64,000 nt of DNA from Tannerella serpentiformis. Lineage in GTDB: Bacteria > Bacteroidota > Bacteroidia > Bacteroidales > Tannerellaceae. Positions 2,657-59,034 of this stretch are shown piece by piece. Position 1 is the stretch's first letter. Each line of letters starts with the position of its first letter. A program made the position numbers and the translations under genes. The stretch is taken from the NCBI RefSeq assembly GCF_003033925.1, contig NZ_CP028365.1, positions 2,108,001 through 2,172,000 on the forward strand. Direction: 5' to 3'. Under the pieces are notes generated by a model. The model did no database searches. It had not been told where the DNA came from and was given only the letters and a program-made list of their open reading frames with translations.

Positions 2657-3134
2657 CAGGGCAACCGCATCAAATCAAAACCACGCGTCTGAGAGATCTC
2701 TGTACCCCTACGGAGATCTCCCGGACTGGTGTTTTTGATCTCCGTACCCCTACGGAGATCTCTCGGACAAGTGTTTTTGATCTCCGTACCCCTACGGAGA
2801 TCTCTCGGACTGGTGTTTTTGATCTCCGTACCCCTACGGAGATCTCTCGGACAAGTGTTTTTGATCTCCGTACCCCTACGGAGATCTCTCGGACAAGTGT
2901 TTTTGATCTCCGTACCCCTACGGAGATCTCTCGGACAAGTGTTTTTGATCTCCGTACCCCTACGGAGATCTCCCGGACTGGTGGTTTTGATCTCCGTACC
3001 CCTACGGAGATCTCTCGGACAAGTGTTTTTGATCTCCGTACCCCTACGGAGATCTATCGGACTGGTGGTTTTGATCACCGTACCCCTACGGAGATCTATC
3101 GGACTGGTGGTTTTGATTTGATGCGGTTGCCCTG
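2657..3134. repeat. 42-bp tandem array A (10 units) bounded by 28-bp inverted repeats
   Basis: Ten units begin at 2695 and every 42 bp after (2737, 2779 ... 3073). Each contains GATCTCCGTA-CCCC-TACGGAGATC, a hairpin with 10-bp arms and a CCCC loop, then a less conserved 18-bp part (tctcggacaagtgttttt or variants). A perfect 28-bp inverted repeat flanks the array: 2657-2684 (starting CAGGGCAACCGCATC) and its reverse complement at 3107-3134. The core CCGTACCCCTACGG and part of the flank recur in the array near 58.9 kb. The array fills the divergent gap between the genes at 1725-2219 and 3215-4573. Confidence 0.97.
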
Positions 3135-3214
3135 GCATCGACCTGTGCCCCGCTGCCGCCGCTGAGGATTTGCCCTATTTTTACCCCCACTTAAAACCAA
3201 CACATAAATACCTT

Positions 3215-4573
3215 ATGAGTACGATCAAAGAGTATATCAAAGAGAACGAGCCACGCTTCGTCGAGGAGTGGTTCAGCCTGTTACGCATCCCGTCCGTCAG
3301 CTCGCAGACGGAGCACAAGGCCGACATGGGCCGCTGCGCCGAACGTTGGCGCGAACTGTTGTTATCGTCCGGAGCCGACCGCGCCGAGGTGATGCCCACC
3401 GGCGGCAATCCGGTGGTCTACGCCGAGCGCATCGTCTCGCCCGACCTGCCCACGGTGCTCGTCTATGGGCATTACGACGTCATGCCCGCCGAGCCGTTAG
3501 AGCTTTGGCAGAGCGAGCCGTTCGAACCCACCATTCGCGACGGACGCGTCTATGCCCGCGGCGCCGACGACGACAAGGGCCAGGCCATGATCCAGGCCAA
3601 GGGCTTCGAGACGGCCCTGCGCGCGGGCGCGGTGCATTGCAACGTGAAGTTCATCCTCGAGGGCGAGGAGGAGGTCGGGTCGGAATCGCTCATCGCCTTC
3701 TGCAAGACGCATGGCGAGCTGCTCCGGGCGGACGTGATCCTCGTCTCGGACACCAGCATGGTGAGCGCCGAGACGCCCTCGCTGACCACGGGCCTGCGCG
3801 GGCTGTCGTACTGGGAGATCGAAGTGACCGGCCCCAACCGCGACCTGCATTCGGGCCACTTCGGCGGCGCCGTGGCCAACCCGATCAATGCGCTCTGCAA
3901 GCTCATCGCCAGCCTGACGGACGCGGACGGACGCATCACCCTGCCGCATTTCTATGACGATGTAGTCGAGCTGACTCCGGACGAAAAGGCGATGATCGCC
4001 CGCGTGCCCTTCGACGAGGCGGCCTACAAGCGGGCCATCGACGTCGACGAGGTGTTCGGCGAGAAGGGCTACTCCACGCTGGAGCGCAACAGCTGTCGGC
4101 CGTCGTTCGACGTCTGCGGCATCTGGGGCGGCTACACGGGCGAGGGCTCGAAGACGGTCCTGCCGTCGAAGGCTTACGCCAAGCTGTCGTGCCGCCTCGT
4201 GCCGCATCAGGATCCGGAGCGCATCACGCGCATGATGATCGATTACCTGCAAGCGGCTGCCCCGACGGGCGTCCGGGTGAAGGTCGACTTCAAGCACAGC
4301 GGCGAGCCGTACGTCTGCCCCATCGATCTGCCGGCTTACAAGGCCGCCGAGGCTGGTTTCACGATCGCCTTCGGCAAGCAGCCCTTGGTCGTGCGCCGTG
4401 GCGGCAGCATCCCCGTCATCCCCGCGTTTGAAAAGATCCTCGGCCTGAAGACGGTCCTCATGGGCTTCGGTCTGGAGCGCAACGCCATCCACTCGCCCAA
4501 CGAGAGCTTTGGCCTCGACATGTTCCGCATCGGCATCGAGGCCGTGGCCGAGTTCTACAACCACTATAAGTAG
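3215..4573 (+). CDS. M20 family metallopeptidase (dipeptidase)
   Basis: A 452-residue M20/ArgE-type di-zinc peptidase, probably a cytosolic dipeptidase cleaving peptides taken up by an amino-acid-fermenting cell. Zinc ligands and catalytic residues are visible: H86 in YGHYDVMP, the D-D-D at 118-120 in RGADDDKGQ, the general base in EGEEEVGSE at 149-157, an Asp in VSDTSM, and the C-terminal His in NAIHSPNE. The dimerisation lid domain lies between them. I chose the start at 3215 (MSTIKEYIKE) because it matches family N-termini; the longer open frame reads out of upstream non-coding DNA. The amidohydrolase gene follows 10 bp later, so they form an operon. Confidence 0.95.
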   Translation: MSTIKEYIKENEPRFVEEWFSLLRIPSVSSQTEHKADMGRCAERWRELLLSSGADRAEVMPTGGNPVVYAERIVSPDLPTVLVYGHYDVMPAEPLELWQSEPFEPTIRDGRVYARGADDDKGQAMIQAKGFETALRAGAVHCNVKFILEGEEEVGSESLIAFCKTHGELLRADVILVSDTSMVSAETPSLTTGLRGLSYWEIEVTGPNRDLHSGHFGGAVANPINALCKLIASLTDADGRITLPHFYDDVVELTPDEKAMIARVPFDEAAYKRAIDVDEVFGEKGYSTLERNSCRPSFDVCGIWGGYTGEGSKTVLPSKAYAKLSCRLVPHQDPERITRMMIDYLQAAAPTGVRVKVDFKHSGEPYVCPIDLPAYKAAEAGFTIAFGKQPLVVRRGGSIPVIPAFEKILGLKTVLMGFGLERNAIHSPNESFGLDMFRIGIEAVAEFYNHYK

Positions 4574-4583
4574 CCCCCGAGGT

Positions 4584-5861
4584 ATGAGCAGCATACTGAT
4601 CCGGTCCGTCGAATGGCAAGGTCGTCCGACGGACCTTTTTATAGAAGGCAACACCATCGCACGCATTGCCGAGACGATCGACGCCCCCGAGGCGGACACC
4701 GTGATCGACGGCCGCGGCAAGGCCCTTATCCCCGGACTCATCAACGCCCACACGCACGCGGCCATGACGCTCTTCCGCGGCTACGGCGACGACATGCCGC
4801 TCATGCAGTGGCTCGAGCAGGCCATCTGGCCCAACGAGGCGAAGCTGACGCACGAGGACGTCTATTGGGGCGCCAAGCTGGCCTGCGTGGAGATGCTCCG
4901 TAGCGGTACGACGACCTTCTTCGACATGTATCACAAGCTCGACGCCACGGCCGAGGCTGTCCAAGAGATGGGGCTCCGTGCCGTGCTCTGCGAGGCCTGT
5001 TTCGATCACTTCCGACCCGAAGAGGCCGAACGCAGCCGCCGCCACATCACGCGTCGCTACGCCACACCTCCGCCCTATGGCCCACGCGTCCGCTACGCCC
5101 TCGGCCCGCATGCCATCTACACCGTCTCCGGCGAACTGCTGCAATGGTCGGCCGACTTTGCCCGGGATCACGACACCCTCATCCACCTCCATCTGGCCGA
5201 GACGACCGTCGAGACCGAGCAATGCCTTGCGCGCTTCGGGCAGACGCCCGTTCGCTACCTGCACCGTTTGGGCATCCTCTCCCCGCGACTTGTCATCGCA
5301 CACGGCCTCTACGTCGACGGGGAGGAGATCCGCATCCTGGCCGACCACGGTGTCAAGGTGGTGCACAACCCGGCGTCGAACATGAAGCTGGCCTCCGGCT
5401 ATCGCTTCCACTTCGACGAGATGCGCGCCGCAGGCATCACCGTCGGGTTAGGCACGGATGGCTGTGCCTCGTCGAACAACCTCGATATGGTCGAGGCCAT
5501 GAAGCTGGCGTCACTGCTCGGCAAGTCGTGGCGTGGCGATCCCGAGGCCGTCACGTGCGACGCCATCTTTCACGCCGCCACGGCTGCCGGTGCCGACATC
5601 CTTGGCCTCCGCGCCGGTCGCATTGCCGAGGGCTACTTGGCCGACCTCTGCCTCATCGATCTCCGCCAGCCCGCCTTCGCCCCGAACCACAACTTCATCT
5701 CGAACCTCGTCTACGCCGCCAACGGCAGCTGCGTGGATACGGTCATCTGCGACGGTCGCGTGCTGATGCGCGACAAGCATGTGCCGGGCGAGGAGGAGAT
5801 CATGGAGCGCGCCTCACGTGCGGCCTACGATCTGGTGCGCCGAGGTGGGAAGCAGGCGTAA
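4584..5861 (+). CDS. mtaD: amidohydrolase, MtaD/SsnA-type (methylthioadenosine/S-adenosylhomocysteine deaminase-like)
   Basis: A 425-residue TIM-barrel deaminase. N-A-H56-T-H58 is the HxH metal site; further ligands are the His in HLHLAET, the His in AHGLY, and the Asp of GLGTDGCASSNNLDM. The family deaminates 5'-methylthioadenosine, S-adenosylhomocysteine or related purines; the exact substrate is inferred from overall resemblance. The start at 4584 gives MSSILIRSVEW, a beta-sandwich strand typical of amidohydrolases. It follows the M20 gene by 10 bp and is followed by a strong bidirectional terminator. Confidence 0.88.
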   Translation: MSSILIRSVEWQGRPTDLFIEGNTIARIAETIDAPEADTVIDGRGKALIPGLINAHTHAAMTLFRGYGDDMPLMQWLEQAIWPNEAKLTHEDVYWGAKLACVEMLRSGTTTFFDMYHKLDATAEAVQEMGLRAVLCEACFDHFRPEEAERSRRHITRRYATPPPYGPRVRYALGPHAIYTVSGELLQWSADFARDHDTLIHLHLAETTVETEQCLARFGQTPVRYLHRLGILSPRLVIAHGLYVDGEEIRILADHGVKVVHNPASNMKLASGYRFHFDEMRAAGITVGLGTDGCASSNNLDMVEAMKLASLLGKSWRGDPEAVTCDAIFHAATAAGADILGLRAGRIAEGYLADLCLIDLRQPAFAPNHNFISNLVYAANGSCVDTVICDGRVLMRDKHVPGEEEIMERASRAAYDLVRRGGKQA

Positions 5862-5877
5862 CCTGCCCCTATTCCCC

Positions 5878-5937
5878 CAAAAAAGAAGGACCGGAAGCGC
5901 GGCGATTGTTTGCGCTTCCGGTCCTGTTGTTTTCCGG
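5878..5937. terminator. bidirectional terminator between mtaD and secG
   Basis: The 13-bp perfect stem GGACCGGAAGCGC (5888-5900) pairs with 5912-5924. An A-run on the left and T-rich sequence on the right let it serve both converging genes. Confidence 0.88.
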
Positions 5938-5957
5938 TCTGTGGCCTCTCGGGCGAG

Positions 5958-6365
5958 TTACTTAGCCGGGGCCTCTTGTTGCTGTTGAGCAGGCTGTTGC
6001 TCGGCGGGCTGCTGTTCGGCCGACTGTTGTGGTTGCTGCTGCGAGCCAAAGTCGGGGCCTGTGGCGTTCGGATCTACGGGCACAGCGTCGTTCACCTGCT
6101 GCTGGATCTCGGACTCCTGTTCGTTCTTCTGCTGGGCATCGCCTTTGGGGATAAACGAAGCGATGAGGATGCTCAGCACGACTACACTGCCGGCCAGCCC
6201 CCAAGTAGCCTTCTCGAGGAAGTCGGTCGTCTTGCGGACGCCCATGATCTGGTTCGACGAGGAGAATCCGGAGGCTAATCCTCCGCCTTTCGAGTTTTGC
6301 ACCAGCACGATCAGAATAAGGAAGATCGATGCCAGGAAAATCAAGATGGATAAAAATACGTACAT
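5958..6365 (-). CDS. secG: preprotein translocase subunit SecG
   Basis: A 135-residue protein. The first 75 residues are a standard SecG: a transmembrane helix from MYVFLSILIFLASIFLILIV, the cytoplasmic loop LVQNSKGGGLASGFSSSNQIMG with the family's G-G-G-L-x-x-x-F pattern, and a second helix. It is an accessory inner-membrane subunit of SecYEG that aids SecA-driven export. The C-terminal 50-60 residues are almost only Gln, Pro, Glu and Ala, a low-complexity tail longer than in most SecG proteins. It is the last gene of the cluster sigma-54 activator, lptE, TPR protein, secG. Confidence 0.95.
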   Translation of the reverse strand: MYVFLSILIFLASIFLILIVLVQNSKGGGLASGFSSSNQIMGVRKTTDFLEKATWGLAGSVVVLSILIASFIPKGDAQQKNEQESEIQQQVNDAVPVDPNATGPDFGSQQQPQQSAEQQPAEQQPAQQQQEAPAK

Positions 6366-6463
6366 GCGATTCTATTGTTTTGAAATGAATAATCGGTGAG
6401 GGTCTCTTTTTCGGGCGGCAAAATAAATGTAAGAAAGCGGGGCAGGCAACAGTCGTCCATGTC

Positions 6464-7159: not shown

Positions 7160-7170
7160 GGGGGGGAGGG

Positions 7171-8893: not shown

Positions 8894-8954
8894 ATCTGGT
8901 GTGTATATTCTGTCAGTTTTGCCTGACAAAATTACAACGATACCCTCAAACCGA

Positions 8955-9630
8955 TCGCGTTCACCCCTTCGCCGCGCCGATAGGCTCCGAAATGCGCCTC
9001 GTTTGGCTCGTTGGCAGTCCTGCAAGCTCCAAAAAGTGCCGCGTTTGGCCCGTCGCCTCCCTTGCAAGCCCCGAAATGAGCCTCGTTTGGCCCTCCCCAA
9101 CTCTTTAGGGGGCTGAATGGAGATATTTATTTGAGGCTTTTATATGGATAGGCTATAACTTGCATCGTATATTCAATGCTTTTATACTGATAGACTAAAG
9201 CCTGCATCGTATATTCAATGCTTTTATGCTGATAGGATATATCCTTCATCGATGGTATAGTTCTTTTATGATGAAAGCATGATACTTTCGGTGCAAGTTG
9301 TTTACTTTCACTATAAAAGCACACTATATAGAATATAGGCGATAAGCTTTTATATAGAAAGACCCAAACTTGCAGTGAAATAAATCAGCTTTTATATTGA
9401 GAGCAATTTACATGCATCGAAGTTTATAGTCTCTTATATTAAAAGCATTTTACTTTCGGTGCAAGTGGTAGGCTTTCATCGTGGGAGCTTCTAATAAATA
9501 TTTCCATTGGGCGCCCTGATGGGAGGTGAAGGGCCTAATGAGCCTCTTTTCAGAGCTTGCAGGACTGTCGACGGGCCAAACGAGGTGCTTTTTGGGGCCG
9601 CGGCGAGTGATGGAAGGCAAACGAGGTGCG
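8955..9630. repeat. 42-bp array B: AT-rich core with mirrored GC-rich arms
   Basis: The AT-rich core has CTTTTATA-like motifs at 9137, 9179, 9221, 9263, 9305, 9347, 9389, 9431 and 9473, exactly 42 bp apart. On the left, CTCGTTTGG-like motifs stand at 8998, 9040 and 9082; on the right the reverse complement (CCAAACGAG) stands at 9534, 9576 and 9617. Within the core the orientation also flips, with AACTTGCATCG on the left and GGTGCAAGT on the right. The whole block is thus an inverted, 42-bp-phased structure between two divergent genes. No gene lies in it. Confidence 0.93.
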
Positions 9631-9644
9631 CCGCGCGGGCTGCT

Positions 9645-9652
9645 TATCTTTG
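9645..9652 (+). promoter_or_regulatory. Bacteroidota -7 element TATCTTTG for the CDF exporter
   Basis: It matches TAnnTTTG, 36 bp before the ATG at 9688. No clear -33 TTTG is seen at the expected distance. Confidence 0.55.
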
Positions 9653-9687
9653 TCCACGCGAATCCACATTAAAAACAGATCCACATT

Positions 9688-18271: not shown

Positions 18272-18577
18272 CCATTTTGTATTCGCCTGAATGGTATTCC
18301 ATACGTATGGATGCAGATTTGATTCTCTCCGAATCGCGTGCAATCTAATCTGAGTCAATTTTGTATTACATCGGATTACGCGCAATATAATACGAATTAA
18401 TTTTGTATGGCATTGAATTGCATGCAATCTAATCTGAATTAATTTTATATTACATCGGATTTCGTGCAATCTGATTCGAATCAATTTTATATCGTGTTGG
18501 ATTGCATGCAATCTGGCCCAAATCAATTTTGTATGAGGTCGGATTGCACGCCATCTGGAGTGAATCTACTTTGCAAA
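18272..18577. repeat. 42-bp array C, AT-rich, with GATTGCATGCAATC palindrome
   Basis: CAATTTTGTAT-like motifs occur at 18314, 18356, 18398, 18440, 18482, 18524 and 18566 (42 bp apart), with another at 18273. Between them is a dyad of the form GATTKCRTGCAATC, best preserved as ATTGCATGCAAT. The units are diverged from each other yet keep their register. The array lies between converging mltG and the glycosyltransferase gene and is far more AT-rich than its surroundings. The rest of the 18012-18675 gap shows nothing recognisable. Confidence 0.9.
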
Positions 18578-22401: not shown

Positions 22402-22737
22402 GGCCTCTGGCAGAAACTTCCACGGTATCCTCACCGGCTGTTGGGCCTCTGGCAGAAACTTCCACGGTATCCTCACCGGCTGTTGGGCCTCTGGCAGAAA
22501 CTTCCACGGTATCCCCACCGGCTGTTTGGCCTCTGGCAGAAACTTCCACGGTATTGCACACGACTGTTAGTCCCCTGGCAGAAACTTCCACGGTGTTGCA
22601 CACGGCTGTTGATGCTCTGGCAGAAACTTCCACGGCATTGCACACGGCTGTTGATGCTCTGGCAGAAACTTCCACGGTGTTGCACACGGCTGTTGAGCCT
22701 CTGGCAGAAACTTCCACGGGGCGGCCCGACGCTCGGC
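22402..22737. repeat. 42-bp tandem array D (8 units)
   Basis: Eight units start at 22402, 22444, 22486, 22528, 22570, 22612, 22654 and 22696. The conserved half is TCTGGCAGAAACTTCCACGG (a short dyad, TGG-AG/CT-CCA). The other half occurs as two main versions (tatcctcaccggctgttggg-like and ttgcacacggctgttgatg-like), so the array is a patchwork of variants. It lies between two divergent genes and ends about 15 bp before the promoter of the lipoprotein gene at 22797. Confidence 0.95.
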
Positions 22738-24019: not shown

Positions 24020-26416
24020 ATGAGAAGAAGCATTCTACACTTAGCTATCATGGCGATCGCGGGGCTTAGCTTCGCCTCCGCCCAAGCGCAGGACGGCTCG
24101 AACGCGCCGATCCTACGCGACAACCGAGTCGACACGGCCATCCTCAGTCGCCCGATCGACCCGAAGATGGACCTCTCCCGCTTACCGCTTTACCTGCTCC
24201 GCATCTACCGGCAGATCCCCGCTGCGCAGCAGGGCTACTGGATCATGCAGCAAGACCTGAACGCGCTCTTCAGCCAGACGGACTGGTACTACAACCGCGC
24301 CGAAGAGGCTGCTTCGCACGGAGACGGCGAGCCTTTCCGGGCCATCCTGAAGCCCGACGAGCAGGCCTTTGTCGACCGAGTGCAAGCCCGCGAGCGCGAG
24401 CTGCTGAAGCAGAACTTCACCGTCCCCAAAGGCTACCGCGTGAACCTGCGCAACCTCGCCAACCCTTACCAATTCGAGGCCCTTCCCGCGGGTATGCAGG
24501 AGGCATTGGCCCGCAACGGATTCGTGATCGTGCCCCAGAACGACATCCAGCTCTTTCACGTCTACGAGAACAATGACTACCACAACTTCCCCAGCTTCGT
24601 CACCACCGATCTCCACCTCCAGCTCTTTCACATGTACTTCGATTTTGTCCTTCGGCAACTGGAGCAGGAGAAGCTCATCCCCATGCTCAGCACCTTCGCG
24701 GGGAGCATGTACAACCACATGAAACGTCAGGCCGAGACCGCCCCCGACGCCGCCACACGCGCGGCTGCGGAGTACAATCAGACCTACTACGCCGTGGGAT
24801 GTGCCCTCCTCACCGGACGGCCCCTCCAGCCCGTCCCTGCGGCTTACCGCGCGATGGCCGAGCTGGAAATGAAGCACGTGGCAGCCGCCAGAGACGAGCT
24901 CTCGGAGTTCTTCGGGTACACCGAAGTGAAGTATCCCTACAGCCTTTACCGACCCCGGGGACACTACACGCGCAATAAGTCGCTGGAGCGCTACTTCCGC
25001 GCCATGATGTGGTTCCAAACCGCCCCCGCGTGCCTGGACAACGACCGGCAATTCCGCGCTGTCGTCATGCAGGCTGCGGTCCTCAGCGACCATCCCGAGG
25101 ACATGAAGCGCTACGACGACTTGATGGAGCCGATAGCCTTCCTTGTCGGTGAGCCGGACAATGTGGCCGTCCGACAAGTAGCCGATCTGCTTCGCCGCGG
25201 CCGATACGTCCTGAAGGCACTCATGACCGACGATGCGACGTTGGAAAAGTTCCGCCGGGAGGTGAAGGTGATCGCCGAGGCGCAAAATAGGATCCGGCCG
25301 GACGAGCGATTTGAGCTTTCATGCCGGGATAAGATCAACCTCATGCCGCAACGGTATTTGGCAGATAGCGAGGTGATGCTGGGCATGGTGGACAACGATA
25401 GCCCGACGACTCGCCGCGGCTGCCCGCGCGGGTTAGACGTCTTCGCGGCTTTTGGCAACGAGACGGCCGAGCGCATCCTGCTCGACGAATTAAAAGAAGC
25501 CACCCGGTGGGACCAGTTCACCGCCCGCCTTGCTCGAGCTAAGGAGCGCATGGCCGGCCTGGATCGCAGCCGGACGGTCTACAACCGATGGATGGAGGCG
25601 CTGTTGGAGATGTCGCGGGCGGACACCCGCCACCCCTATTTCATGCAGACGCCGTTATGGGCCAAAAAGAACCTCAACACCTCTCTTGCCTCCTGGGCCG
25701 AGCTCAGGCACGACGTGATCCTCTACGGCGAACAGCCGGTGGTGGCCGAATGTGGCGCCGGGGGACTGCCCGACCCCTACACCGTGGGCTACGTGGAGCC
25801 CAACACGCGCTATTGGCGCCGCGCCATTGAGCTGATTGACCTCACGGCATCCGTGCTCCGCAAGCACGGGCTGACCTCGGAGCGCATTGAAGCCGTCAGC
25901 CAGTCGCTCCGTGAGCAAACCGAGTTCCTGCTGCGGGTCAGCGAAAAAGAACTTAGCGGACAGGCGCTCACCGAAGAGGAATACAACCAGATCGAGACCG
26001 TGGGTAGCAACGTGGAATGGATTACGCTCGAGTTCCTTCGCGAGGGGGACGAGCCGCTAAGCGGATGGGACGACGTCCATGGCGCCGACAAGTCCGTGGC
26101 AGTCGTGGCCGACGTCTTCACCGCCAACGGGGGGAACAACCCAGAGAAATGCGTCCTCTACGAGGCCACGGGGTACGTCGACCACCTCTACGTCGTCGTC
26201 GAGATCGAGGGATACCTCTACCTCACCCGCGGCGCCGTCTTCTCTTATCATGAATTCAGCCGCGCCGTAAGCGATCCGCGCATGACCGACGAGGAATGGC
26301 AGAAGACGCTCGAGAAAAAGCCCCGCCACGGTGTGCCGGACTGGATGCGTGAGCTGATCCTCCCCGGGGCCATCCCGGTGGACAACGAGAAGGTGTTTTA
26401 CAGCGGCGGCTGCTGA
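24020..26416 (+). CDS. secreted DUF3160-domain protein
   Basis: A 798-residue protein with a signal peptide (MRRSILHLAIMAIAGLSFASAQAQ). The body (for example HNFPSFVTTDLHLQLFHMYFDFVLRQLE, and later YEATGYVDHLYVVVEIEGYLYLTRGAVFSYHEF near the C-terminus) matches DUF3160 proteins, large mostly helical exported proteins of unknown activity found in Bacteroidota and some archaea. The start at 24020 is chosen because it gives the signal peptide; the longer frame is upstream leader. CapA-like protein is encoded 51 bp downstream. Confidence 0.85.
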   Translation: MRRSILHLAIMAIAGLSFASAQAQDGSNAPILRDNRVDTAILSRPIDPKMDLSRLPLYLLRIYRQIPAAQQGYWIMQQDLNALFSQTDWYYNRAEEAASHGDGEPFRAILKPDEQAFVDRVQARERELLKQNFTVPKGYRVNLRNLANPYQFEALPAGMQEALARNGFVIVPQNDIQLFHVYENNDYHNFPSFVTTDLHLQLFHMYFDFVLRQLEQEKLIPMLSTFAGSMYNHMKRQAETAPDAATRAAAEYNQTYYAVGCALLTGRPLQPVPAAYRAMAELEMKHVAAARDELSEFFGYTEVKYPYSLYRPRGHYTRNKSLERYFRAMMWFQTAPACLDNDRQFRAVVMQAAVLSDHPEDMKRYDDLMEPIAFLVGEPDNVAVRQVADLLRRGRYVLKALMTDDATLEKFRREVKVIAEAQNRIRPDERFELSCRDKINLMPQRYLADSEVMLGMVDNDSPTTRRGCPRGLDVFAAFGNETAERILLDELKEATRWDQFTARLARAKERMAGLDRSRTVYNRWMEALLEMSRADTRHPYFMQTPLWAKKNLNTSLASWAELRHDVILYGEQPVVAECGAGGLPDPYTVGYVEPNTRYWRRAIELIDLTASVLRKHGLTSERIEAVSQSLREQTEFLLRVSEKELSGQALTEEEYNQIETVGSNVEWITLEFLREGDEPLSGWDDVHGADKSVAVVADVFTANGGNNPEKCVLYEATGYVDHLYVVVEIEGYLYLTRGAVFSYHEFSRAVSDPRMTDEEWQKTLEKKPRHGVPDWMRELILPGAIPVDNEKVFYSGGC

Positions 26417-27449: not shown

Positions 27450-29515
27450 TTATTGTCTCAGACAACGGGAGATTCCTATGCCATTCATCTATCAAATACG
27501 CCCCTACCTGAAAACATCTATACCATCCATCTATCAAATACGCGTACCCGTGTAGGGGCGTATTGCATACGCCCTACAACCATCCCGCGAGGGATGATTG
27601 GATAAATAAGGAATCTCCGAATGATTGTCCGTTTTTGTTGGGTATGATAGAGGAGCGTATGCAATACGCCCCTACCTAAAAACACCCTTACCACCCATCT
27701 ATCAAATGCGCGTACCGTGGTAGGGGCGTATTGCATACGCCTCACAAACATCCCGCAAGGGATGAACAAATGGCCCATGAATCCCAAAATGATTGTCCAT
27801 TTTTGTTAGATATGATCGAGGGGCGTATGCAATACGCCCCTACGTGGGCGCATCTATACTATCCATCTATCCAATACGTGTACCCGTGTAGGGGCGTATT
27901 GCATACGGCCTACAATCATCCCGCAAGGGATGAACGGATAGACCATAAATCCCCAAATGATTATACGGCCTCTGCGTGGTTGATCGAGGGGCGTATGCAA
28001 TACGCCCCTACGCAGGCGCATCTATACCACCCATCTATCCAATACGCGTACCCGTGTAGGGGCGTATTGCATACGCCCCACAAACATCCCACAAGGGATG
28101 AACGCATAGACCATGAATCCTCTAATGATTGTCCGTTTTTGTTGGATATGATCGATGGGCGTATGCAATACGCCCCTACCTAAAAACACCCTTACCACCC
28201 ATCTATCAAATACGTGTACCCGTGTAGGTCGCAAAAGCATACGCCCCACAACCATCCCGCAAGGGATGAATGGATAAATAAGGAATCCCCAAATGATTGT
28301 CCGTTTTTGTTGGGAATGATAGAGAGGCATATGCAATACGCCCCTACGTGGGCGCACATGTATGCCCAATCTCCCATTGCCCCAGACAATGACGCGCACC
28401 TGTGCCATAAATTTATCGCTGTCTCAGACAATAATAAATACCTATTTCAAGGATTGAATATTGTCTCGATCGATGGTAGATATATCGCACAATTATTCAT
28501 CATCGACTCGATCAATAATAAATAGGATTGCATGCGTTTATTATTGTCTGAGACATTGATGAATGCCTTGATCAGGTATTTAGTATTGTCTGAGACAATG
28601 GTTCTTGTCTACACCAGAAATCGCCAATTGTTTTGGACAATAAGGGGTTCCTACATCTTTCGTCTTTTGATGTTGGCGTATAACATGGATTTCTCTATCT
28701 TTTCTGAAGGAAACGGATGGACATTTTCAGATTCCGGGTCTATACATTCATCCCTTGCGGGATGATTGTGGGGCGTATGCTTTTGCGACCTACACGGGTA
28801 CGTGTATTTGATAGATGGGTGGTATAGATGCGCCTGCGTAGGGGCGTATTGCATACGCCCCACAATCGTTTCCAGCGGAAACGGATGGCCGTTTTCAGAT
28901 TTCAGGTCTATCCATTCATCCCTTACGGAATGATTGTGGGGCGTATGCAATACGCCCCTACACGGGTACGCGTATTGGATAGATGGGTGGTATAGATATG
29001 TCTGCGTAGGGGCGTATTGCATACGCCCCTCGATAGTTTCCAACGGAAACGGATGGATATTTTTAGATTCCTGATCTATCCATTCATCCCTTGCGGGATG
29101 TTTGTGGGGCGTATGCAATACGCCCCTACACGGGTACACGTATTGGATAGATAGGTGGTGTAGATGCGCCTACGTGTATGCGTTTTTCATACGCCCCTCT
29201 ATTGTCTCCTGCAGAAACGGATGAACATTTTCGGATTCCGGGTCTATCCATTCATCCCTTGCGGGATATTTGTGGGGCGTATGCAATACGCCCCTATACG
29301 GGTACGCGTATTTGATAGATAGGTGGTATAGATGCGCCTACGTAGGGGCGTATTGCATACGCCCCCCTATCGTTTCCAACGGAAACGGATGGACGTTTTC
29401 AGATTACGGGTCTATACATTCATCCCTTACGGGATGTTTGTGGGGCGTATGCTTTTGCGCCCTACACGGGTACACGTATTTGATAGATGGGTGGTAAGGG
29501 TGTTTTTAGGTAGGG
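27450..29515. repeat. array E: 2-kb mirrored array of 168-bp (4 x 42) units around a 42-bp palindrome array
   Basis: The left arm has GTAGGGGCGTATTGC motifs at 27552, 27720, 27888, 28056 and 28224, exactly 168 bp apart. The right arm has the reverse complement, with GCGTATGC at 28773, 28941, 29109, 29277 and 29445, again 168 bp apart. Each 168-bp unit holds two oppositely oriented GGGGCGTAT-tgc-ATACGCCCC hairpins and a CATCCCGC-GAGGGATG dyad. The centre (28376-28641) is a separate 42-bp array. The region separates the converging CapA-like and GH95 genes. The innermost unit on both sides carries the same private variant (gtaggtcgcaaaagcat). Confidence 0.96.
28376..28641. repeat. central part of array E: ATTGTCTSAGACAAT palindromes every 42 bp
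   Basis: Palindrome centres are at 28383, 28425, 28467, 28509 (degenerate), 28550, 28592 and 28634, spaced 42, 42, 42, 41, 42, 42 bp, with unrelated AT-rich spacers of about 27 bp. One more copy stands outside the left arm, centred at 27459; its distance to 28383 is 924 bp = 22 x 42, so register is kept across the left arm of 168-bp units. Confidence 0.9.
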
Positions 29516-29542
29516 GCGTTTTTTATAGATAGGGGATAAAGG

Positions 29543-36282: not shown

Positions 36283-36375
36283 TCTTTCAATTAACGGGGC
36301 GCAAAAGTGGGGCATTAATCTCAAGATAGCTGTCTGGCGGAGTGTCTGTGGGGGATAACGTTCCAAAATGTGAGG

Positions 36376-36766
36376 GGATGAGGACTCTTTTTGCGATTAC
36401 ACCCTCATCCCCTGAGGGGACGGGGGCGTCATCCTGAAATTACGCCCTATCCCCTGAGGGGACGGCAGTGTCATTCTGGAATTACGGTCTATCCCCTTGA
36501 GGGGACGGGGCTTTTTTTGCGATTACACCCTCATCCCCTGAGGGGACGGGAGCGTCATCCTGAAATTACGCCCTATCCCCTGAGGGGACGGGGGCGTCAT
36601 TCTGAAATTACGGTCTATCCCCTCAGGGGACGGGGGTGTCATCCTGAAAATAGCTCCTATCCCCTGAGGGGGTGGGGGTGTCATCCTGAAATTACGGTCT
36701 ATCCCCTGAGGGGATGGGGGTGTCATTCTGAAATTACGGTCTATCCCCTTGGGGGGACGGGATCTG
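36376..36766. repeat. 42-bp array F with CCCCTGAGGGG palindrome
   Basis: CCCCTGAGGGG (or CCCCTTGAGGGG, CCCCTTGGGG) is centred at 36414, 36456, 36498, 36540, 36582, 36624, 36666, 36708 and 36749, i.e. 41.5-42.5 bp apart. The other half of the unit is built from a few interchangeable pieces (gtcatcctgaaattacg, gtcattctgaaattacgg, ctttttttgcgattacac). It fills the gap between the start of surE and the end of the upstream minus-strand gene. Confidence 0.95.
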
Positions 36767-42658: not shown

Positions 42659-43062
42659 CATCGACAGTGTAGGTCGGGGCTTTTCAAGTCCGGAAAGCCG
42701 GATCGACAGTGTAGGTCGGGGCTTTTCAATTCCGGAAAGTCGGATTGACAGTGTAGGTCGAGGCTTTTCAAGTCCGGAAAGCCGGATCGACAGTGTAGGT
42801 CGAGGCTTTTCAAGTCCGAAAAGTCGGATCGACAGTGTAGGTCGGGGCTTTTCAAGTCCGAAAAGTCGGATCGACAGTGTAGGTCGGGGCTTTTCAAGTC
42901 CGGAAAGCCGGATCGACAGTGTAGGTCGGCATTTTTCAAGTCCAGAAAGCCGGATTGACAGTGTAGGTCGGGGCTTTTCAAGTCCGAAAAGCCGGATCGA
43001 CAGTGTAGGTCGGGGTTTTTCAAGTCCGAAATGCCGGATCGACAGTGTAGGTCGAGGTTAAC
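42659..43062. repeat. 42-bp tandem array G (nine full units and a tenth, partial one)
   Basis: Units start at 42659 and every 42 bp (42701, 42743 ... 43037). The consensus is GATCGACAGTGTAGGTCGGG followed by GCTTTTCAAGTCCGGAAAGCCG. The second half forms a hairpin (GGCTTTTC with GGAAAGCC). Units differ by scattered single changes only, so it is one of the most uniform arrays. It fills the gap between converging dinD and the nitrilase gene. Confidence 0.97.
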
Positions 43063-47012: not shown

Positions 47013-47070
47013 CTTGTTTTTGGGGGGATGAATTGCTGATTACGTAGATTGTTTAGGTCGTCCGAGCCTC

Positions 47071-47600
47071 GGAAATGACCTCTCCCGAAGGTTTGCCCCA
47101 TTTCCTCGATGCGGAAATGGCCTCTCCCGAGGGTTTGACCCATTTCCTCGATGCGGAAATGACCTCTCCCGAAGGTTGGGCCCATTTCCTTACTCGGGAA
47201 ATGGCCTCTCCCGAAGGTTGGGCCCATTTCCTGACTCGGGAAATGGCCTCTCCCGAAGGTTTGACCCATTTCCTCGATGCGGAAATGACCTCTCCCGAAG
47301 GTTTGGCCCATTTCCTCGATGCGGAAATGGCCTCTCCCGAAGGTTTGACCCATTTCCTGACTCGGGAAATGACCTCTCCCGAAGGTTTGACCCATTTCCT
47401 CGATGCGGAAATGGCCTCTCCCGAAGGTTTGGCCCATTTCCTGACTCGGGAAATGGCCTCTCCCGAAGGTTGGGCCCATTTCCTGACTCGGGAAATGACC
47501 TCTCCCGAAGGTTGGGCCCATTTCCTGACTCGGGAAATGACCTCTCCCGAAGGTTTGACCCATTTCCTCGATGCGGAAATGGCCTCTCCCGAGGGAGGGA
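47071..47600. repeat. 42-bp array H (12 units and a partial) built from interchangeable modules
   Basis: GGAAATG recurs at 47071, 47113, 47155 ... 47575. Arms CATTTCC and GGAAATG flank one of two 7-bp cores (TCGATGC or TGACTCG), forming a hairpin at each unit boundary; between them lie TCTCCCGAAGG and one of three versions (GTTTGACC, GTTTGGCC, GTTGGGCC). The versions are shuffled along the array independently of each other. It lies between the Fic start and the end of the TolB-like gene. Confidence 0.97.
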
Positions 47601-51093: not shown

Positions 51094-51116
51094 CCCCCGC
51101 AACACCCGAGCAAGAC

Positions 51117-51189: not shown

Positions 51190-51221
51190 CGTTTTTTGTA
51201 TTTCATGGCGTTCTTCACGGT

Positions 51222-51258: not shown

Positions 51259-51303
51259 CCTCGTTTAGCCCCCCCCGGACAACCTTCCCGAATAGCGTCT
51301 TGG

Positions 51304-52038: not shown

Positions 52039-52070
52039 GTCTCCTGTCGTTTTTATGTCCGAATCACTTT

Positions 52071-52800
52071 GCGAACCCCTCGCGGACTTCCGTTTCATGC
52101 CATTTCGGGCATGCGAACTGTCCGCAGCACTCTTCGCGCCCCATGATCGGGCCCGTGAAGGCCTTGCGGACATCCGTTTTATCCTTGAAAGGTGCCGCCA
52201 AAGGTATATCGTTTCACGTTTCTACACATCGGAATCTCCCGAAAACGTATTCCTTTTTATTTCCATCGCTCGGAATTTCCCGAAGTATGTTCTCTATATG
52301 TAACAAGGTCTCGGATTATTCCGAAGCGTATTCATAGTATGTACCTAATTCTCGGGAATCCCCGAACAGTCTAAGCTATATATTTTCAACTCTTCGGAAA
52401 TCCCCGAAAGTATAGAAATGGATTTTTATATCAATCGGATATTCCCGAAAGACTGTATATCTTGTTTATAACTTCTCGGACACTCCCGAATAATGACTAT
52501 TCATATTTTTATCTTATCGGAGTTTCCCGAAGAGATGATACATCAGTTTTCTATTCTTCGGATAATTCCGAGCATTTGTAACCAGATGGAATATATCTTC
52601 GGGAAATTCCGAACGCTTGTAATAGGTAGGTGGAATATTTCGGGAAGTTCCGAACGGGCGAAAAAGGAGCCGATAAGGCCTTATCCGAGAAGAAAGGAGG
52701 GGAAACGGATCTCCGCAAGCGGTGCGCAGAGGCGAGCGGGCCGCAAACGGGAGTCGGCGGGCCGTGAACGGGCTTACACAAGGGGCTAAACGGACGCTGC
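52071..52800. repeat. 41/42-bp array I: 14-bp palindrome with unique spacers, GC-rich arms
   Basis: TCGGRAWTYCCCGA-type palindromes start at 52229, 52270, 52311, 52352, 52394, 52435, 52476, 52517, 52558, 52599 and 52640 (41, 41, 41, 42, then 41 bp apart). The spacers of about 27 bp between them are AT-rich and all different. GC-rich units stand on both sides: GCGAAC/GTGAAG at 52071, 52113, 52155 and AAACGG-type motifs around 52703 and 52745, also 42 bp apart, with two more closely spaced copies up to 52791. It lies between the divergent DUF6261-like and fumC genes. There is no cas gene. Confidence 0.93.
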
Positions 52801-52875
52801 GGGGCCTTCGCGAGGCGTTTCTGAGTCCGCGACGTATGTTTTTGGCATCGCCCCACGGTAATTGCCAAGAACGTC

Positions 52876-52883
52876 TATTTTTG
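52876..52883 (+). promoter_or_regulatory. -7 element TATTTTTG for fumC
   Basis: It matches TAnnTTTG, 50 bp before the ATG at 52934. Confidence 0.5.
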
Positions 52884-52933
52884 CCCGCAGTTGTCACCAA
52901 GAAATTGAATCATCACCAAAAAAATATAGAACA

Positions 52934-54334: not shown

Positions 54335-54360
54335 GGCTTGCCGCCGAAAGTGTATCCCGA

Positions 54361-54637
54361 GTTGTGAGGCTCTCAGGGCCAATCAATGAGGGTTATTATT
54401 TTTTCCATAATATAATATTGGTCCCTCCCCTCGCGTGAGCGCCGGGAGGGATTTCCTGAGTTGTGAGGCTTTCAGAGCCAATCAATAATGGTAATTGTTT
54501 TTTATGTTAGTTCCTCTCCTCGCGCGAGCGTCGGGAGGGATTTCCCGAGTTGTGAGGCTCTCAAGGCTAATCAATAAGGACTATAATTTTTTATTAGCAT
54601 TAGTCCCTCCCCTCGCGTGAGCGCTGGGAGGGATTTT
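54361..54637 (+). repeat. three tandem terminator-like modules after fumC
   Basis: GTTGTGAGGCTCTCAGGGCC-like blocks start at 54361, 54460 and 54549 (99 and 89 bp apart). Each is followed by an AT-rich stretch and a hairpin TCCCTCCC-CTCGCGTGAGCGCYG-GGAGGGA. Only the last hairpin is followed by a full T7 run and looks like a working terminator. The gap of 316 bp holds no gene. The period is not 42 bp, so I keep it apart from the arrays. Confidence 0.88.
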
Positions 54638-54650
54638 TTTACCCCACACC

Positions 54651-55358: not shown

Positions 55359-55401
55359 TGCATGCCTCCTCAGCGCCCCGGCGGGCTTATGCATAATCGG
55401 C

Positions 55402-55409
55402 TACTTTTG
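55402..55409 (+). promoter_or_regulatory. -7 element TACTTTTG for slyD
   Basis: It matches TAnnTTTG, 23-29 bp before the two candidate ATGs of slyD. Confidence 0.6.
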
Positions 55410-55431
55410 CGCCCCTATCTAAAAATCAAGA

Positions 55432-55989
55432 ATGTATATGAGAGTATCAAAGAACAAATTCGTGACGGTTACCTATGACCTGCACGTGGGCGATGCGGAC
55501 GACCGCACACTGATGGAGTCGGCTACCCCAGAACAACCCCTGAAGTTTATCTATGGCATTGGCGCCATGTTAGAGGCCTTCGAAAAGAATCTGAGCGGCC
55601 TAGAGCCGGGCGACCGCTTCGAGTTTTCCCTTACGCCTGAGCAGGCATACGGCCAGCGTATAGAGGAGAATGTGGTCGATCTGCCGAAGAGTGTCTTCAT
55701 GGTGGACGGCGTGTTCGATAGCGAGCGCGTGAAGGAAGGCGCCACGCTGCCCATGATGAGCGCCGAGGGGCAGCACATGAACGGCTCCGTGCTGGAGGTG
55801 AAGGACGACGTCGTAGTGATGGACTTCAATCACCCGTTGGCGGGCGAGACGCTGCACTTTGCCGGACAGGTGGCCGACGTGCACGAGCCGACGGCTGAGG
55901 AACTGGCCGAGATGGAGCAGATGATGCACGGCGGCTGTGGCGGACATGACCACGACGGTTGTGGCGGTTGCGACGGCTGCTGCCACTGA
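55432..55989 (+). CDS. slyD: SlyD-type FKBP peptidyl-prolyl isomerase and metallochaperone
   Basis: A 185-residue SlyD: an FKBP domain (VTVTYDLHVGD; FIYGIGAMLEAFEKNLSGLEPGD) interrupted by the IF chaperone insert (about residues 75-125), then VMDFNHPLAGETLHFAGQV, which closes the FKBP fold. The last 20 residues are a Gly/Cys/His/Asp-rich tail (repeats of C-G-G, H-D-H-D, C-D-G-C-C-H) that should bind nickel or zinc. It folds proline-limited proteins and delivers metal. Starts at 55432 and 55438 (MRVSKNK) are both possible. Confidence 0.95.
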   Translation: MYMRVSKNKFVTVTYDLHVGDADDRTLMESATPEQPLKFIYGIGAMLEAFEKNLSGLEPGDRFEFSLTPEQAYGQRIEENVVDLPKSVFMVDGVFDSERVKEGATLPMMSAEGQHMNGSVLEVKDDVVVMDFNHPLAGETLHFAGQVADVHEPTAEELAEMEQMMHGGCGGHDHDGCGGCDGCCH

Positions 55990-56116
55990 TCTATAATCTT
56001 CTAATTCCCCTTTTTGAAGTAGCTCTTCATTCCTAACCCCCGGTGGGTCTCGGATGAAGGGCTTCTTTTTACCCCCTCTTCTAATAACTACTTCACCCTA
56101 CTCCCCACGATACGAT

Positions 56117-57184
56117 ATGAATACGTTCGGAAACAACTACCGCCTGACCACCTTCGGCGAATCGCATGGCACGGCTATCGGCGGCATCATCGACGGTTGC
56201 CCCGCCGGCATTGAGGCGGATACGGCCTTCATTCAAAGCGAACTCAACCGCCGTCGGCCGGGACAGTCCGCACTGACTACCTCACGCAACGAACCCGACA
56301 CGGTCGAGTTCCTTTCCGGGCTTTACGAGGGCCGAACGACCGGTACACCCATCGCCTTCCTCGTCCGCAACCGCGATCAGCATTCGAAAGACTACGACGC
56401 CATGCGCAACCTCTATCGCCCGTCGCACGCTGACTATACCTACCAGATGAAGTACGGCATCCGCGATCCGCGCGGCGGTGGACGCAGCTCGGCACGCACC
56501 ACCATAGCGCAATGCGTCGGCGGTGCCGTGGCTAAGCTCGCCCTGCAACCCGAGGGCATCACCGTCCGCGCCTATACCTCGCAGGTGGGGCGTATCCGCC
56601 TCGACGGCACGTATCGCGATTATGACCTCACGCTCACCGAGACGAACGCCGTGCGGTGTCCCGACGCACGCAAGGCGGCCGAGATGGAGGCACTGATCCG
56701 TCGCGTCAAGGAGCAGGGCGACACGGTGGGCGGCGTCATCACGGGCGTCATCACGGGCGTGCCCGTTGGACTCGGCGAGCCTGTCTTTGGCAAGTTGCAC
56801 GCCGCGCTCGGGGCCGCTATGCTCGGCATCAACGCCGTGAAGGGCTTCGACTACGGCGACGGCTTCGACGCCCCCCTCTACCTCGGTTCGGAACACAACG
56901 ACACCTTCTGCAACGACCACGGCCGTATCGCCACCCGTACGAATTACTCGGGCGGCATACAGGGCGGCATCTCCAACGGCGAAGACATCTATTTCCGTGT
57001 TGCCTTCAAGGCTGTGGCCACCCTGCTGCGCGAGCAACAGACGGTCGATCGTGACGGACGCGAGACCATTATAAACGCGAAAGGACGCCACGATCCGTGC
57101 GTCCTTCCCCGTGCCGTGCCGCTCGTCGAGGCGATGGCGGCAATGACTATGCTGGATTATTTATTGCTCATGAAGAGCCGTTGA
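56117..57184 (+). CDS. aroC: chorismate synthase
   Basis: A 355-residue Aro[22 protein letters not shown] with the active-site His, [32 protein letters not shown], and [16 protein letters not shown] are the family's FMN and EPSP-binding segments. It makes chorismate from EPSP, the last step of the shikimate path. The start at 56117 ([10 protein letters not shown]) is certain by homology. Its last 28 bp overlap the converging S41 protease gene. Confidence 0.97.
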
Positions 57185-58602
57185 CCGGCCGGCGGCGTAT
57201 CGATAGCCTTACCGTTCAGCGGGCGGTTCGGGTTATCGATGGGCAGCTCGCGGAGTGCAGGCTGTATGCGGTGTGAGCGCGCTTTAGCCACCTGCTTGCC
57301 CGTGATCAGCTCCAGCGCCTTACCCAGCAGCGGGTCACGCTCGTCGCCGAAGGGATAGAGCTCCAGCAGGTATTCCTTCACGACATACTTCGGTGCGAAG
57401 CCGCGCGGAAACTCGTCATTACGCTTGTTGGAGAACTTGTAGATCATCACGTACATGCCCCAGTTCTTGATCTCTTGGTAATACGAGGCGTCCTTGTCCC
57501 ACCAGAGATGTTTCGGCATGAGTACGATGCCGCCGCAGAATTTGCCATGCGTCGTGTCGCCGATCTGCACCACATCCATGTAAGGCGTGAGCCCCGTGAG
57601 GGTCAGCTCCGAAGCCGAGGCTGTGCCCTTGCCCGTAAGGATATAGAGCCGGTTGAGGTTCATGTTGATGCCCAAGGTGTCGACGAACGTCTCATACAGC
57701 TCGTCGTTCCGACCCTTGCTTTTCCAGTAGCTCATATAGTTTTCGTTCCAGAGCTTGAACAGGAAGCGCTCTTTCTTTTTCATGGCCGCCTCAGGCGCAA
57801 GGATGCTACAGAGCGCGCGCGCCGTGCTGACGTAGCCGCCGCCATTGTAGCGCAGATCGAGCACGACGTCGGTCACGCCGGCCGTCTTAAACCGCGTAAA
57901 GACCTTGATCAGCTCCGCGGTGGAGCGCTCCGTGTAATCCGAGTAACAGAGGTAGCCCACGCGGTGGCCATCCTTATTGATCACGGTGTCCTTGAGGATG
58001 GGATCTTGGTACATCTCCACGGCCGTCATAGCCACGCCGACCGGTTCGGCCGTGAGGGTTTTGTCCTTGAGAATACCCTTGTTGACTACGATGGTGGGTT
58101 TGTCGTAGAAGTCGGCATAGTTCTTCACCGTGATGGGTCCGCCGTTCAGCTTGAGCAAGAGGTCGCCCCGTCGGATGCCCGCACGGTCGGCCGGTGTGCC
58201 GGGATAGACATAACGGACGATGGCCACGAGCTCTTCCGTCTGTCCGATGTAGCTAAAGCGGAGGTCGAAACCGTAGGTGGTCGATATGCCGGCGAAGCCT
58301 TGGTTCCAAGCCTCGGCATTGTCGGTGAGGCTCGTCCAGCGATCGTCTTTATAGATCAACCGTTTGAAGAAGGCGTGCGAATCCTTCTCCTTCTTGAAAT
58401 CGATAGCGTTCCAATTGATCGTATTCTCCCACAGATATTCACTCCGTAGCCCCTCGTAGATGAACTCGTTCACCTTCAGGGTGACTTTGTTCTCAGGATC
58501 TGGTTTGGGTGTCGGTTTAATCCATTCCTCATCGCATGCGGTAAGGAACCCCAAGAGGCACAGGCCGCAGATCGCCAGCCTGGCATTCATTGTCTTTTTC
58601 AT
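57157..58602 (-). CDS. S41-family C-terminal processing peptidase-like lipoprotein
   Basis: A 481-residue lipoprotein (signal to [10 protein letters not shown], Cys about 23) with an N-terminal helical cap, a PDZ domain ([22 protein letters not shown], about 135-160) and the S41 core. The nucleophile Ser is in [15 protein letters not shown]; the carrying strand [20 protein letters not shown] precedes it. The usual Lys base four residues after the Ser region is not obvious, so activity is uncertain. It acts in the periplasm or at the surface. It converges on aroC with a 28-bp overlap of coding sequence. Confidence 0.9.
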
Positions 58603-58676
58603 ACACTGTCTTGATTACGTTGTTGTGTTATACATAAAGAGGCGTCGGGAGGGAGGTGTTGGCCTCCCGACAGGGG

Positions 58677-58684
58677 CAAAAGTA
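58677..58684 (-). promoter_or_regulatory. -7 element TACTTTTG for the S41 protease gene
   Basis: The plus-strand sequence is CAAAAGTA, 74 bp before the ATG at 58602. Confidence 0.55.
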
Positions 58685-58726
58685 GTTCTGAAACACTCAA
58701 TCAATCTTCGGAGAGGCGTAGGCTGA

Positions 58727-59034
58727 CAGGGCAACCGCACCCGAATAGCTGCAAACTTGGGGCACTTCTTTGCTCTACATAGCCCTACGGAAAGGAGAAC
58801 TACGTGTGGTTTTAATCTCCGTACCCCTACGGAAAGGAGAACCACGTGTGGTTTTGATCTCCGTACCCCTACGGAAAGGAGAACCACGTGTGGTTTTAAT
58901 CTCCGTACCCCTACGGAAAGGAGAACCACGTGTGGTTTTGATCTCCGTACCCCTACGGAAAGGAGAACCACGCGTGGTTTTGATCTCCGTAGATGAGCAG
59001 ACGGTTGGGACGTAGTGGTGAAGTCTTGATGTGG
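58727..59034. repeat. 42-bp array J (about 5 units), relative of array A
   Basis: Units start at 58814, 58856, 58898, 58940 and 58982, with a part-unit from 58781. Each has CCGTA-CCCC-TACGG (as in array A) and CCACGTGTGG, a second palindrome not present in A. To the left, CAGGGCAACCGCA at 58727-58739 is identical to the boundary of array A; to the right, TTGATGTGGTTACGCTG near 59022-59038 resembles its inverted copy at 14 of 17 positions. It lies between the divergent S41 protease and SPT genes. Confidence 0.93.

Follow-up and report, generated by a model that had tools for sequence, protein, structure and literature searches.

Intergenic tandem arrays of many sequence families mostly share a 41-42-bp repeat length in Tannerella serpentiformis

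Why should tandem arrays whose sequences differ from one intergenic region to the next repeat at one and the same length? The question is raised by a stretch of 64,000 nucleotides of Tannerella serpentiformis (hereafter the window), bases 2,108,001-2,172,000 of a single-contig genome of 3,013,500 bp (G000), in which a preliminary description made from the letters alone had listed ten intergenic arrays with a repeat of 42 bp, or 41 bp in one case. Bacterial repeats mostly belong to families defined by a single sequence. The common property here is length together with symmetry, across 46 BLAST families in 15% of the chromosome, and related genera have it in other sequences. We propose, with about an even chance of being right, that the arrays are a DNA-level scaffold between transcription units, held by a putative cooperative dimeric protein.

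One repeat length in many sequence families

Using the window and 20 stretches of 20 kb placed round the chromosome (464 kb in total, 15% of the genome), we calculated the periods of tandem arrays with Tandem Repeats Finder (TRF) and the best lags of intergenic gaps. Among 77 noncoding arrays of period at least 15 bp (those outside long open reading frames, 15 further arrays within such frames being excluded), 54 have a period of 40-42 bp. The remaining 23 comprise seven at 84, 123 or 168 bp, eleven at 21-23 or 43-44 bp, and five at 25, 57, 60, 78 and 89 bp. TRF reported nothing in 2-base-block shuffles of the 464 kb, and nothing in 50 kb of E. coli K-12, a thin outgroup control. The 70 TRF arrays of period 38-46 bp (33 at 42, 27 at 41, five at 40, three at 44 and two at 43) occupy 4.2% of the sample, and none lies inside a called gene. 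The excess at 41-42 bp therefore extends beyond the window, and the broad spread of periods that would make the ten arrays a chance subset was not found in the 464-kb sample.

Scoring of gaps between genes gives the same period. The best lag was 40-42 bp or near a multiple of it, with z of at least 6, in 55 of the 88 gaps of at least 400 bp (15/19 divergent, 10/17 convergent and 30/52 tandem), and in none of 101 shorter gaps, those under 100 bp being unscored. It should be noted that gene calls, including gap orientation, come from a simple codon-usage caller that missed some genes. When each lag from 1 to 299 in the autocorrelation of the window is compared with the neighbouring lags in its 3-base class, only 3, 4, 42, 84, 126, 168, 210, 252 and 294 stand out. 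TRF places nine of the ten islands, at period 42 or at 84, 126 and 168; the divergence of the tenth (52.2-52.7 kb) puts it beyond the reach of TRF, but it has a lag of 41 (z 10.6), with 11 dyads in 41/42-bp steps. Of the 12 gaps of the window that are 400 bp or longer, 10 contain such an array, and all ten islands are intergenic, in five divergent, three convergent and two tandem gaps, in agreement with the earlier count.

The earlier statement that the sequences are mostly unrelated stands with exceptions. Single-linkage BLAST divides the 70 arrays into 46 families, but the largest is a superfamily of nine, the arrays at 2.7 and 58.8 kb of the window share a motif, and 46 of 92 arrays have a flank in common with another array, the other 46 having no flank match (manual count).

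Dyads, spacers and the TCGG islands

The second common property is symmetry. The best dyad of the family consensus units has on average 6.57 of 10 inner pairs, compared to 5.92 after shuffling, and a weaker symmetry is offset from it by half a period, most evidently in the 27 families whose centre is odd. In 31 of 45 arrays tested, conservation is higher in the dyad columns than in the spacers (0.911 vs 0.884, p 0.003). For 12 degenerate arrays, the mean dyad conservation is 0.673 against 0.590 for spacers (p 0.02), in a test whose automatic axis missed the obvious dyad axis of L021 (the row was retained) and which included L023, an array without structure. The ratio of indels to mismatches is 0.074 in the 40-42-bp arrays of G000, compared to 0.17-0.23 in its other arrays. 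Of 30 array regions, 25 aligned to their own reverse complement for more than 100 nt, the longest match of each having 55-76% identity (manual count); five regions, including those at 22.4 and 42.7 kb, gave no such match. This self-complementarity arises in part because the units are dyadic. Mirroring beyond the dyads, with arms inverted round an AT-rich core, is seen at 8994-9629 and 27487-29530 of the window and in L016, L019 and L021, and L027 has long inverted arms, too. With the centre masked, 38 gaps still align, but in most of these the arm also matches the core, so that 38 is not a count of true mirrored islands, and the 52-kb island is not one of them.

The importance of length itself is best seen with the dyad TCGG-N6-CCGA. 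We searched 41 genomes for pairs of this dyad, allowing any start-to-start spacing from 22 to 52 bp, with the reversed motif as a control that gave 0 pairs throughout. There are 37 pairs in G000, of which 35 are at 41 bp and two at 42 bp. T. forsythia G014 has 11 pairs (three at 41 and eight at 42); the pairs of G007 (5), G008 (3) and G022 (5) are at 42 bp with different inner letters, those of G011 (4) and G021 (7) are at 42 bp within 21-bp units, and G002 and G023 have a single pair each, at 45 and 44 bp. The pairs of G000 form five islands, at 24.8, 753, 1502, 2160 (window 52.2 kb) and 2586 kb; a relaxed search with up to three mismatches gave at least five islands among the matches listed, and a weaker sixth is possible. 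Of 66 consecutive relaxed-dyad distances in the five regions, 46 are 41 bp, four are 42 bp and 16 have other values. Within each island the 41/42-bp steps make one unbroken run of 9-11 steps, with the 16 other distances outside the runs, and the number of dyads per core is 11, 11, 10 (or 12, if two weak ends are included), 11 and 12.

The 27-nt spacers between these dyads are 70% A+T and near random, with a pairwise identity of 0.356 (0.290 when shuffled, 0.412 between neighbours), compared to 0.76 for the degenerate 14-bp dyads. Near-random spacers of fixed length are the main reason for thinking that length is selected, and the spacing itself is probably under selection. The best spacer match, unit for unit, is at offset 0 in three of ten island pairs, all with L016 (window 0.474, L227 0.459, L228 0.415; overall 0.34-0.35), and for the window and L227 offset 0 is second best, in a comparison in which many offsets were tried and no significance test was made. 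These similarities suggest that the TCGG islands may be old copies of one ancestral island in which the dyads and the step were kept, while the spacers diverged. As a separate observation, the islands (at 24757, 753315, 1502358, 2160229 and 2585548 of G000) are spread more evenly than random points: the largest gap is 0.249 of the chromosome (P 0.0035) and the smallest 0.141 (P 0.0075), both post hoc.

Under the proposed scaffold, each repeat would carry one dyad, in many cases with the weaker symmetry offset by half a period; a dimeric protein would sit on each dyad, and neighbouring dimers would touch or share one oligomer. Selection would hold the spacing of the dyad centres, at 41-42 bp or about four turns of the helix, and the letters could drift if the dyad stays symmetric. 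The arrays would grow, shrink and homogenise through unequal recombination, and one class also resides inside elements derived from insertion sequences (IS). The function may be insulation or compaction of inter-operon DNA, or regulation of flanking promoters.

Alternatively, the arrays might be two different things whose equal length is due to chance or shared ancestry: the TCGG islands would be operator arrays of one regulator, and the rest minisatellites of the type of miniature inverted-repeat transposable elements (MITEs), like those of Porphyromonas gingivalis. A shared sequence-specific dyad with free spacers is found only in the TCGG islands, which lie beside particular genes, including a regulator gene; most arrays outside the TCGG cores have repeated, and many of them well-conserved, spacers. 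Nevertheless, we regard this division as improbable. The period is equal in all classes, the arms flanking the TCGG cores, all with G+C above that of their own core, show a lag of 42 or 84 (z of at least 3.5) in eight of ten cases, and the TCGG units of T. forsythia have conserved spacers like other arrays, with arms that switch between TCGG/CCGA and TCGC/GCGA (judged by eye).

Covariation in the TTGC-N9-GCAA superfamily bears on whether symmetry is read in DNA or in RNA. Among its 155 distinct units, counted as units and not as independent events, arm positions 3 and 4 vary among A-T, G-C and C-G and are Watson-Crick pairs in 95% and 97%, compared to 59% and 48% after shuffling; for the two innermost positions the values are only 72% and 61%. 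Since units can fold and these stems co-vary, the arrays might be transcribed as terminators, stabilisers or small RNAs, and bidirectional promoter activity is described for the BrickBuilt elements of Porphyromonas gingivalis in the available excerpts of Klein et al. 2015 (PMC4596501). However, the two co-varying positions almost lack G-T pairs (found in 4 and 1 of 155 units), and Rfam at gathering scores gave only two tRNAs in the window. The positions of promoters point the same way. TAnnTTTG is a Bacteroidales promoter motif. It lies between the array and the facing gene start on 32 of 63 sides, versus two in the reversed control, but occurs only twice in 19.7 kb of array with both strands counted; thus, the arrays seem to be mostly upstream of promoters. 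Hairpins acting in RNA are therefore a very unlikely explanation.

Mobile elements and neighbouring genes

Some arrays are carried by mobile elements. The 15-bp inverted ends of the 2.7-kb array are common to an IS at 2504178-2505322 of G000, whose separate open frames match DDE_Tnp_1_assoc and DDE_Tnp_1, and which we take to belong to the ISAs1 family. Such terminal inverted repeats surround a subset of arrays, at five places, with an exact target duplication of 10 bp in L184, 9 of 10 matching bases in L001 and in the window (2657-3134, where the flanks resemble a target duplication), and none evident in L183. In L184 (2656435-2656828 of G000), the IS-type element with its 42-bp array is nested in another 41/42-bp array. 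A second class of elements has the cap TTTTGGAAATGC at both ends; in four inward-facing pairs the dyad length from one cap to the other equals n x 41 + 17 bp without deviation (own arithmetic). The leader and tail of this class accompany 17 of 92 arrays (15 islands, several of them fetched for the cap), and the dyads differ. At window position 62173 there is an element tail with the TTTTGGAAATGC cap and no array in the next 60 bases, possibly a remnant.

These elements speak for a serious rival as regards the bulk of arrays, namely, selfish or neutral minisatellites whose step is set by palindrome amplification (slippage, hairpin cleavage and repair, unequal crossing-over) and which pile up between transcription units, where they do the least harm, with no host function. 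Such an origin agrees with the subset between IS-type ends with target duplications, with capped elements in which a common leader or tail holds different arrays, with chimaeric arrays such as L183, and with the strong differences between related genomes. As reported in the excerpted account, PgRS and BrickBuilt of P. gingivalis are also MITE-borne (PMC4596501). On the other side, the dyads outlive the spacers, and the five islands have exact 41-bp steps, near-random spacers and 10-12 dyads. Furthermore, we know of no amplification mechanism that gives one length in 46 families. Taken as the explanation of the arrays, minisatellites are possible but doubtful.

An enzyme that copies 42-nt segments, another earlier proposal, did not hold for the sole candidate examined. 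A single Y1 transposase gene at 1380004-1380351 of G000 (L194:1992-2450) has near-identical hairpin repeats, GTAGGGGCGC and CCAGGGGCGAAACCCCTGG, on both sides, an arrangement like that of transposases associated with repetitive extragenic palindromes (RAYT); the hairpin centres are 23-36 bp apart (manual count), and reverse transcriptases and cas genes were not searched for. The gene next upstream of this transposase matches HU-HIG. Plasmid, phage or virus origin of the arrays is unsupported by searches with two queries: the 27.5-kb island had no match in plasmid or phage collections, and the 2.7-kb motif had no exact copy in viral contigs.

What could hold such a scaffold? The preliminary description had suggested a machine that measures length, and this stands in part: length is probably constrained, as the near-random spacers of the five TCGG islands indicate, but the binding protein is only postulated, and an expansion of HU-type genes was rejected as its source, with three HU-HIG and five HU matches in G000 versus nine and 11 in T. 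forsythia G014. The most concrete candidate is a DNA-wrapping oligomer of the Lrp/AsnC type, for two reasons: one of the two genes of this family in G000 adjoins a TCGG island (it is directly downstream, at L228:1935-2396, approximately 2586234-2586695 of G000), and members of the family are known to have sites of about 15 bp separated by spacers of 27-29 bp. In the available part of the source (PMC10201364), Lrp/AsnC proteins have 15-bp semipalindromic sites and wrap DNA on an octamer; the spacers are 15-17 bp in some members and 27-29 bp, counted as three turns, in one archaeal member and in E. coli Lrp. The 14 + 27 bp geometry of the TCGG islands fits, and one of the five islands is beside an AsnC-family gene. 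Like the operator arrays of BarR, the islands are intergenic and have regularly spaced semipalindromic sites of about 15 bp; unlike them (four or five sites at one locus, in the same excerpts of PMC10201364), they have 10-12 sites at five loci, with putative binding. A broader variant, which we consider unlikely, is a bacterial chromatin-like system, in which a wrapping or filament protein would organise inter-operon DNA throughout the chromosome, need one dyad per approximately four turns and be nearly sequence-blind; the arrays would position it, with the five widely spread TCGG islands (10-12 sites at 41 bp, with 42-bp arms) as the strongest anchoring or loading sites.

Of the five TCGG islands, one lies beside an aspartase/fumarase-type lyase gene and DUF6261, and another has MurB and acetyl-CoA hydrolase as neighbours. 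A further island adjoins the gene of an outer-membrane protein, with DNA polymerase III alpha behind it, and yet another adjoins DUF3298 and gyrase A (gyrA, identified by eye from the sequence). The fifth has the AsnC/Lrp regulator and then a HAD hydrolase, with an unmatched gene on its other side.

Relatives, known systems and the individual arrays

By serine palmitoyltransferase (SPT), the nearest named relatives are T. forsythia OH1426_COT-023 and Tannerella sp. S17M_Sa_42, both with 90% protein identity. Noncoding arrays of 41-42 bp with other sequences were found in T. forsythia G041 (1/9) and in Tannerellaceae Pc512_bin25 (5/6, in 40 kb), and in a Parabacteroides metagenome-assembled genome and P. 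loveana (2/3 each). Periods of 21-22 and 44 were found in P. bouchesdurhonensis (2/2), P. pasteri (4/4) and P. circumdentaria (4/4), although period 21 in relatives may represent coding heptads. The other sampled Bacteroidales genomes had no arrays or other periods. It should be noted that these counts are not independent, since the group of other SPT loci overlaps stretches of G043, G045 and G046. The expected sharing of the periodicity by close relatives is thus only partly borne out: the arrays occur in T. forsythia at lower density, one further Tannerellaceae genome is rich in them, and several sampled stretches have none. Beside the orthologues of window 3224-5837, T. forsythia has an array to which two copies that remain in Tannerella sp. 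S17M are related.

The closest parallel is in P. gingivalis. Available excerpts of Klein et al. 2015 (PMC4596501) describe 41-nt repeats in PgRS (MITE464) elements and 23-nt repeats, unrelated in sequence, in BrickBuilt, and note 41-, 23- and 22-nt repeats in strain W83. Like the arrays here, these are intergenic 41- and 22/23-nt arrays in the same order, with predicted stem-loops and IS-type terminal repeats; unlike them, the arrays here form tens of families at one length, compared to approximately 10-20 copies per MITE family in one species, and those excerpts hold no discussion of the common repeat length (PMC4596501). Most of the arrays here also have no recognised IS ends, and the TCGG islands have free spacers.

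Other known systems share less. Repetitive extragenic palindromic sequences (REP) and bacterial interspersed mosaic elements (BIME) are dispersed intergenic palindromes in inverted arrangements, with Y1 (RAYT) transposases. The arrays resemble them in being dispersed intergenic palindromes, in the inverted arrangements and in the single Y1 gene of G000 flanked by hairpins, and differ in the fixed 41/42-bp tandem step, which the Y1 hairpins do not have, and in the lack of one common REP sequence, with 46 unit families by BLAST. Plasmid iterons and helically phased operators are direct repeats approximately 21-22 bp or a multiple apart that are read cooperatively, but each such system has one sequence and few loci, unlike 46 families in 15% of a chromosome. 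Clustered regularly interspaced short palindromic repeats (CRISPR) have near-identical repeats, unique spacers and cas genes; the TCGG dyads are degenerate and the spacers of most arrays are repeated, and cas genes were outside the search. Among the matches listed for literature on Tannerella tandem, intergenic or palindromic repeats, with subscription journals thinly covered, neither a genome-wide period lock nor TCGG islands were found, and the portions of PMC13298647, PMC7014623 and PMC5771137 that were available hold nothing on such arrays. The 41-nt and 22/23-nt minisatellites of P. gingivalis are already known; those matches and portions gave no account of a sequence-free period lock or of the TCGG islands.

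Several observations weigh against the scaffold. The preliminary description had all dyads on the same face of the helix, but arrays of 40, 41 and 42 bp all occur, and exact same-face phasing is unsupported because a step of 40 or 41 bp drifts round the helix relative to 10.5 bp per turn. Part of the arrays are clearly mobile-element cargo. No TCGG pair exists in 32 of the 41 genomes, one TCGG array of T. forsythia is in a convergent gap (codon-usage caller), and in seven of the ten island pairs, among them every pair with L021, the best match is not at offset 0 on the same strand. As to the Lrp/AsnC candidate, the second AsnC gene has no array nearby, with ten genes flanking the islands the probability that some regulator is adjacent by chance is not small, and arrays with other dyads need a different explanation. 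The 40-42-bp arrays of other genomes have an indel ratio of 0.122, nearer that of other arrays (0.163 for periods 15-39). Finally, array sites are not conserved between species where checked, and the gap here that matches the one in T. forsythia has no array.

If it is true that a protein reads the spacing, the arrays would reveal a length-measuring DNA organiser, and the TCGG islands could be used as bait to find it. Conversely, a mutational cause would imply that some mechanism amplifies DNA in a fixed step. In both cases, the minisatellites of 41 and 22/23 nt in P. gingivalis, as far as they are described in the excerpts of PMC4596501, join a wider pattern that can be tested.

The individual arrays of the window, to which no strand is assigned, are as follows. 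The divergent gap at 2657..3134 has a 42-bp array (TRF 2695-3117) with the unit dyad GATCTCCGTA-CCCC-TACGGAGATC, enclosed by the 15-bp inverted ends CAGGGCAACCGCATC at 2657-2671 and 3120-3134. In the divergent gap at 8994..9629, a mirrored island has an AT-rich core of period 42 (TRF 9136-9251) and inverted, GC-richer arms with 70% identity when the core is masked. The convergent gap at 18312..18575 holds an AT-rich array of period 42/84 (TRF 18331-18557) that is self-complementary at 64% over 264 nt. No long self-complementary match was found for the arrays of 7.6 copies of 42 bp (TRF) in the divergent gap at 22402..22719 and of 9.4 copies of 42 bp (TRF) in the convergent gap at 42660..43054.

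The ten islands were listed correctly, but the structure of the one at 27.5-29.5 kb is more complex than a simple array: this convergent gap (27487..29530) consists of two opposed 168-bp (4 x 42) arrays (TRF 27495-28347 and 28693-29496) that mirror each other round an AT-rich 42-bp core, and it aligns to its own reverse complement with 76% identity along 2062 nt. The tandem gap at 36371..36761 has a 42/126-bp array (TRF) with CCCCTGAGGGG-type dyads, and that at 47070..47592 has 12.5 copies of 42 bp (TRF) with the stem TTTCC/GGAAA and varying inner letters. In the divergent gap at 52229..52653, the core consists of 11 TCGG-N6-CCGA dyads in 41-bp steps (one of 42) with spacers that are not conserved. 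Together with its GC-richer arms, which have lag 42 (z 3.7 and 4.2), the whole TCGG island spans 52058..52824 and is self-complementary as a whole (61% over 788 nt), whereas the arms alone do not align when the core is masked. The tenth array, in the divergent gap at 58769..58991, is a 42-bp array (TRF) with the TCTCCGTACCCCTACGGA motif in common with the 2.7-kb array.

A few repeats have other lengths. The remaining TRF arrays of the window have periods of 18, 12 and 89 bp, the last being a tandem repeat of 2.4 copies at 54417-54636, among the few arrays off the 41/42-bp length. A second length class is represented by 22-bp arrays (22/44/66) at L011:17648-17970, L022:13464-13796 and L025:17993-18229, with TTCGGAACG- or ATTAAATACCCC-type units. 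At L011:18790-18980 and L021:669-763, 7-bp arrays of TAGAGGG followed by CTCTACC are inverted about a short centre. Gaps of L011 and L015 are identical in length (575 and 328 bp) and in statistics, in reverse order, which suggests a long duplicated chromosomal region.

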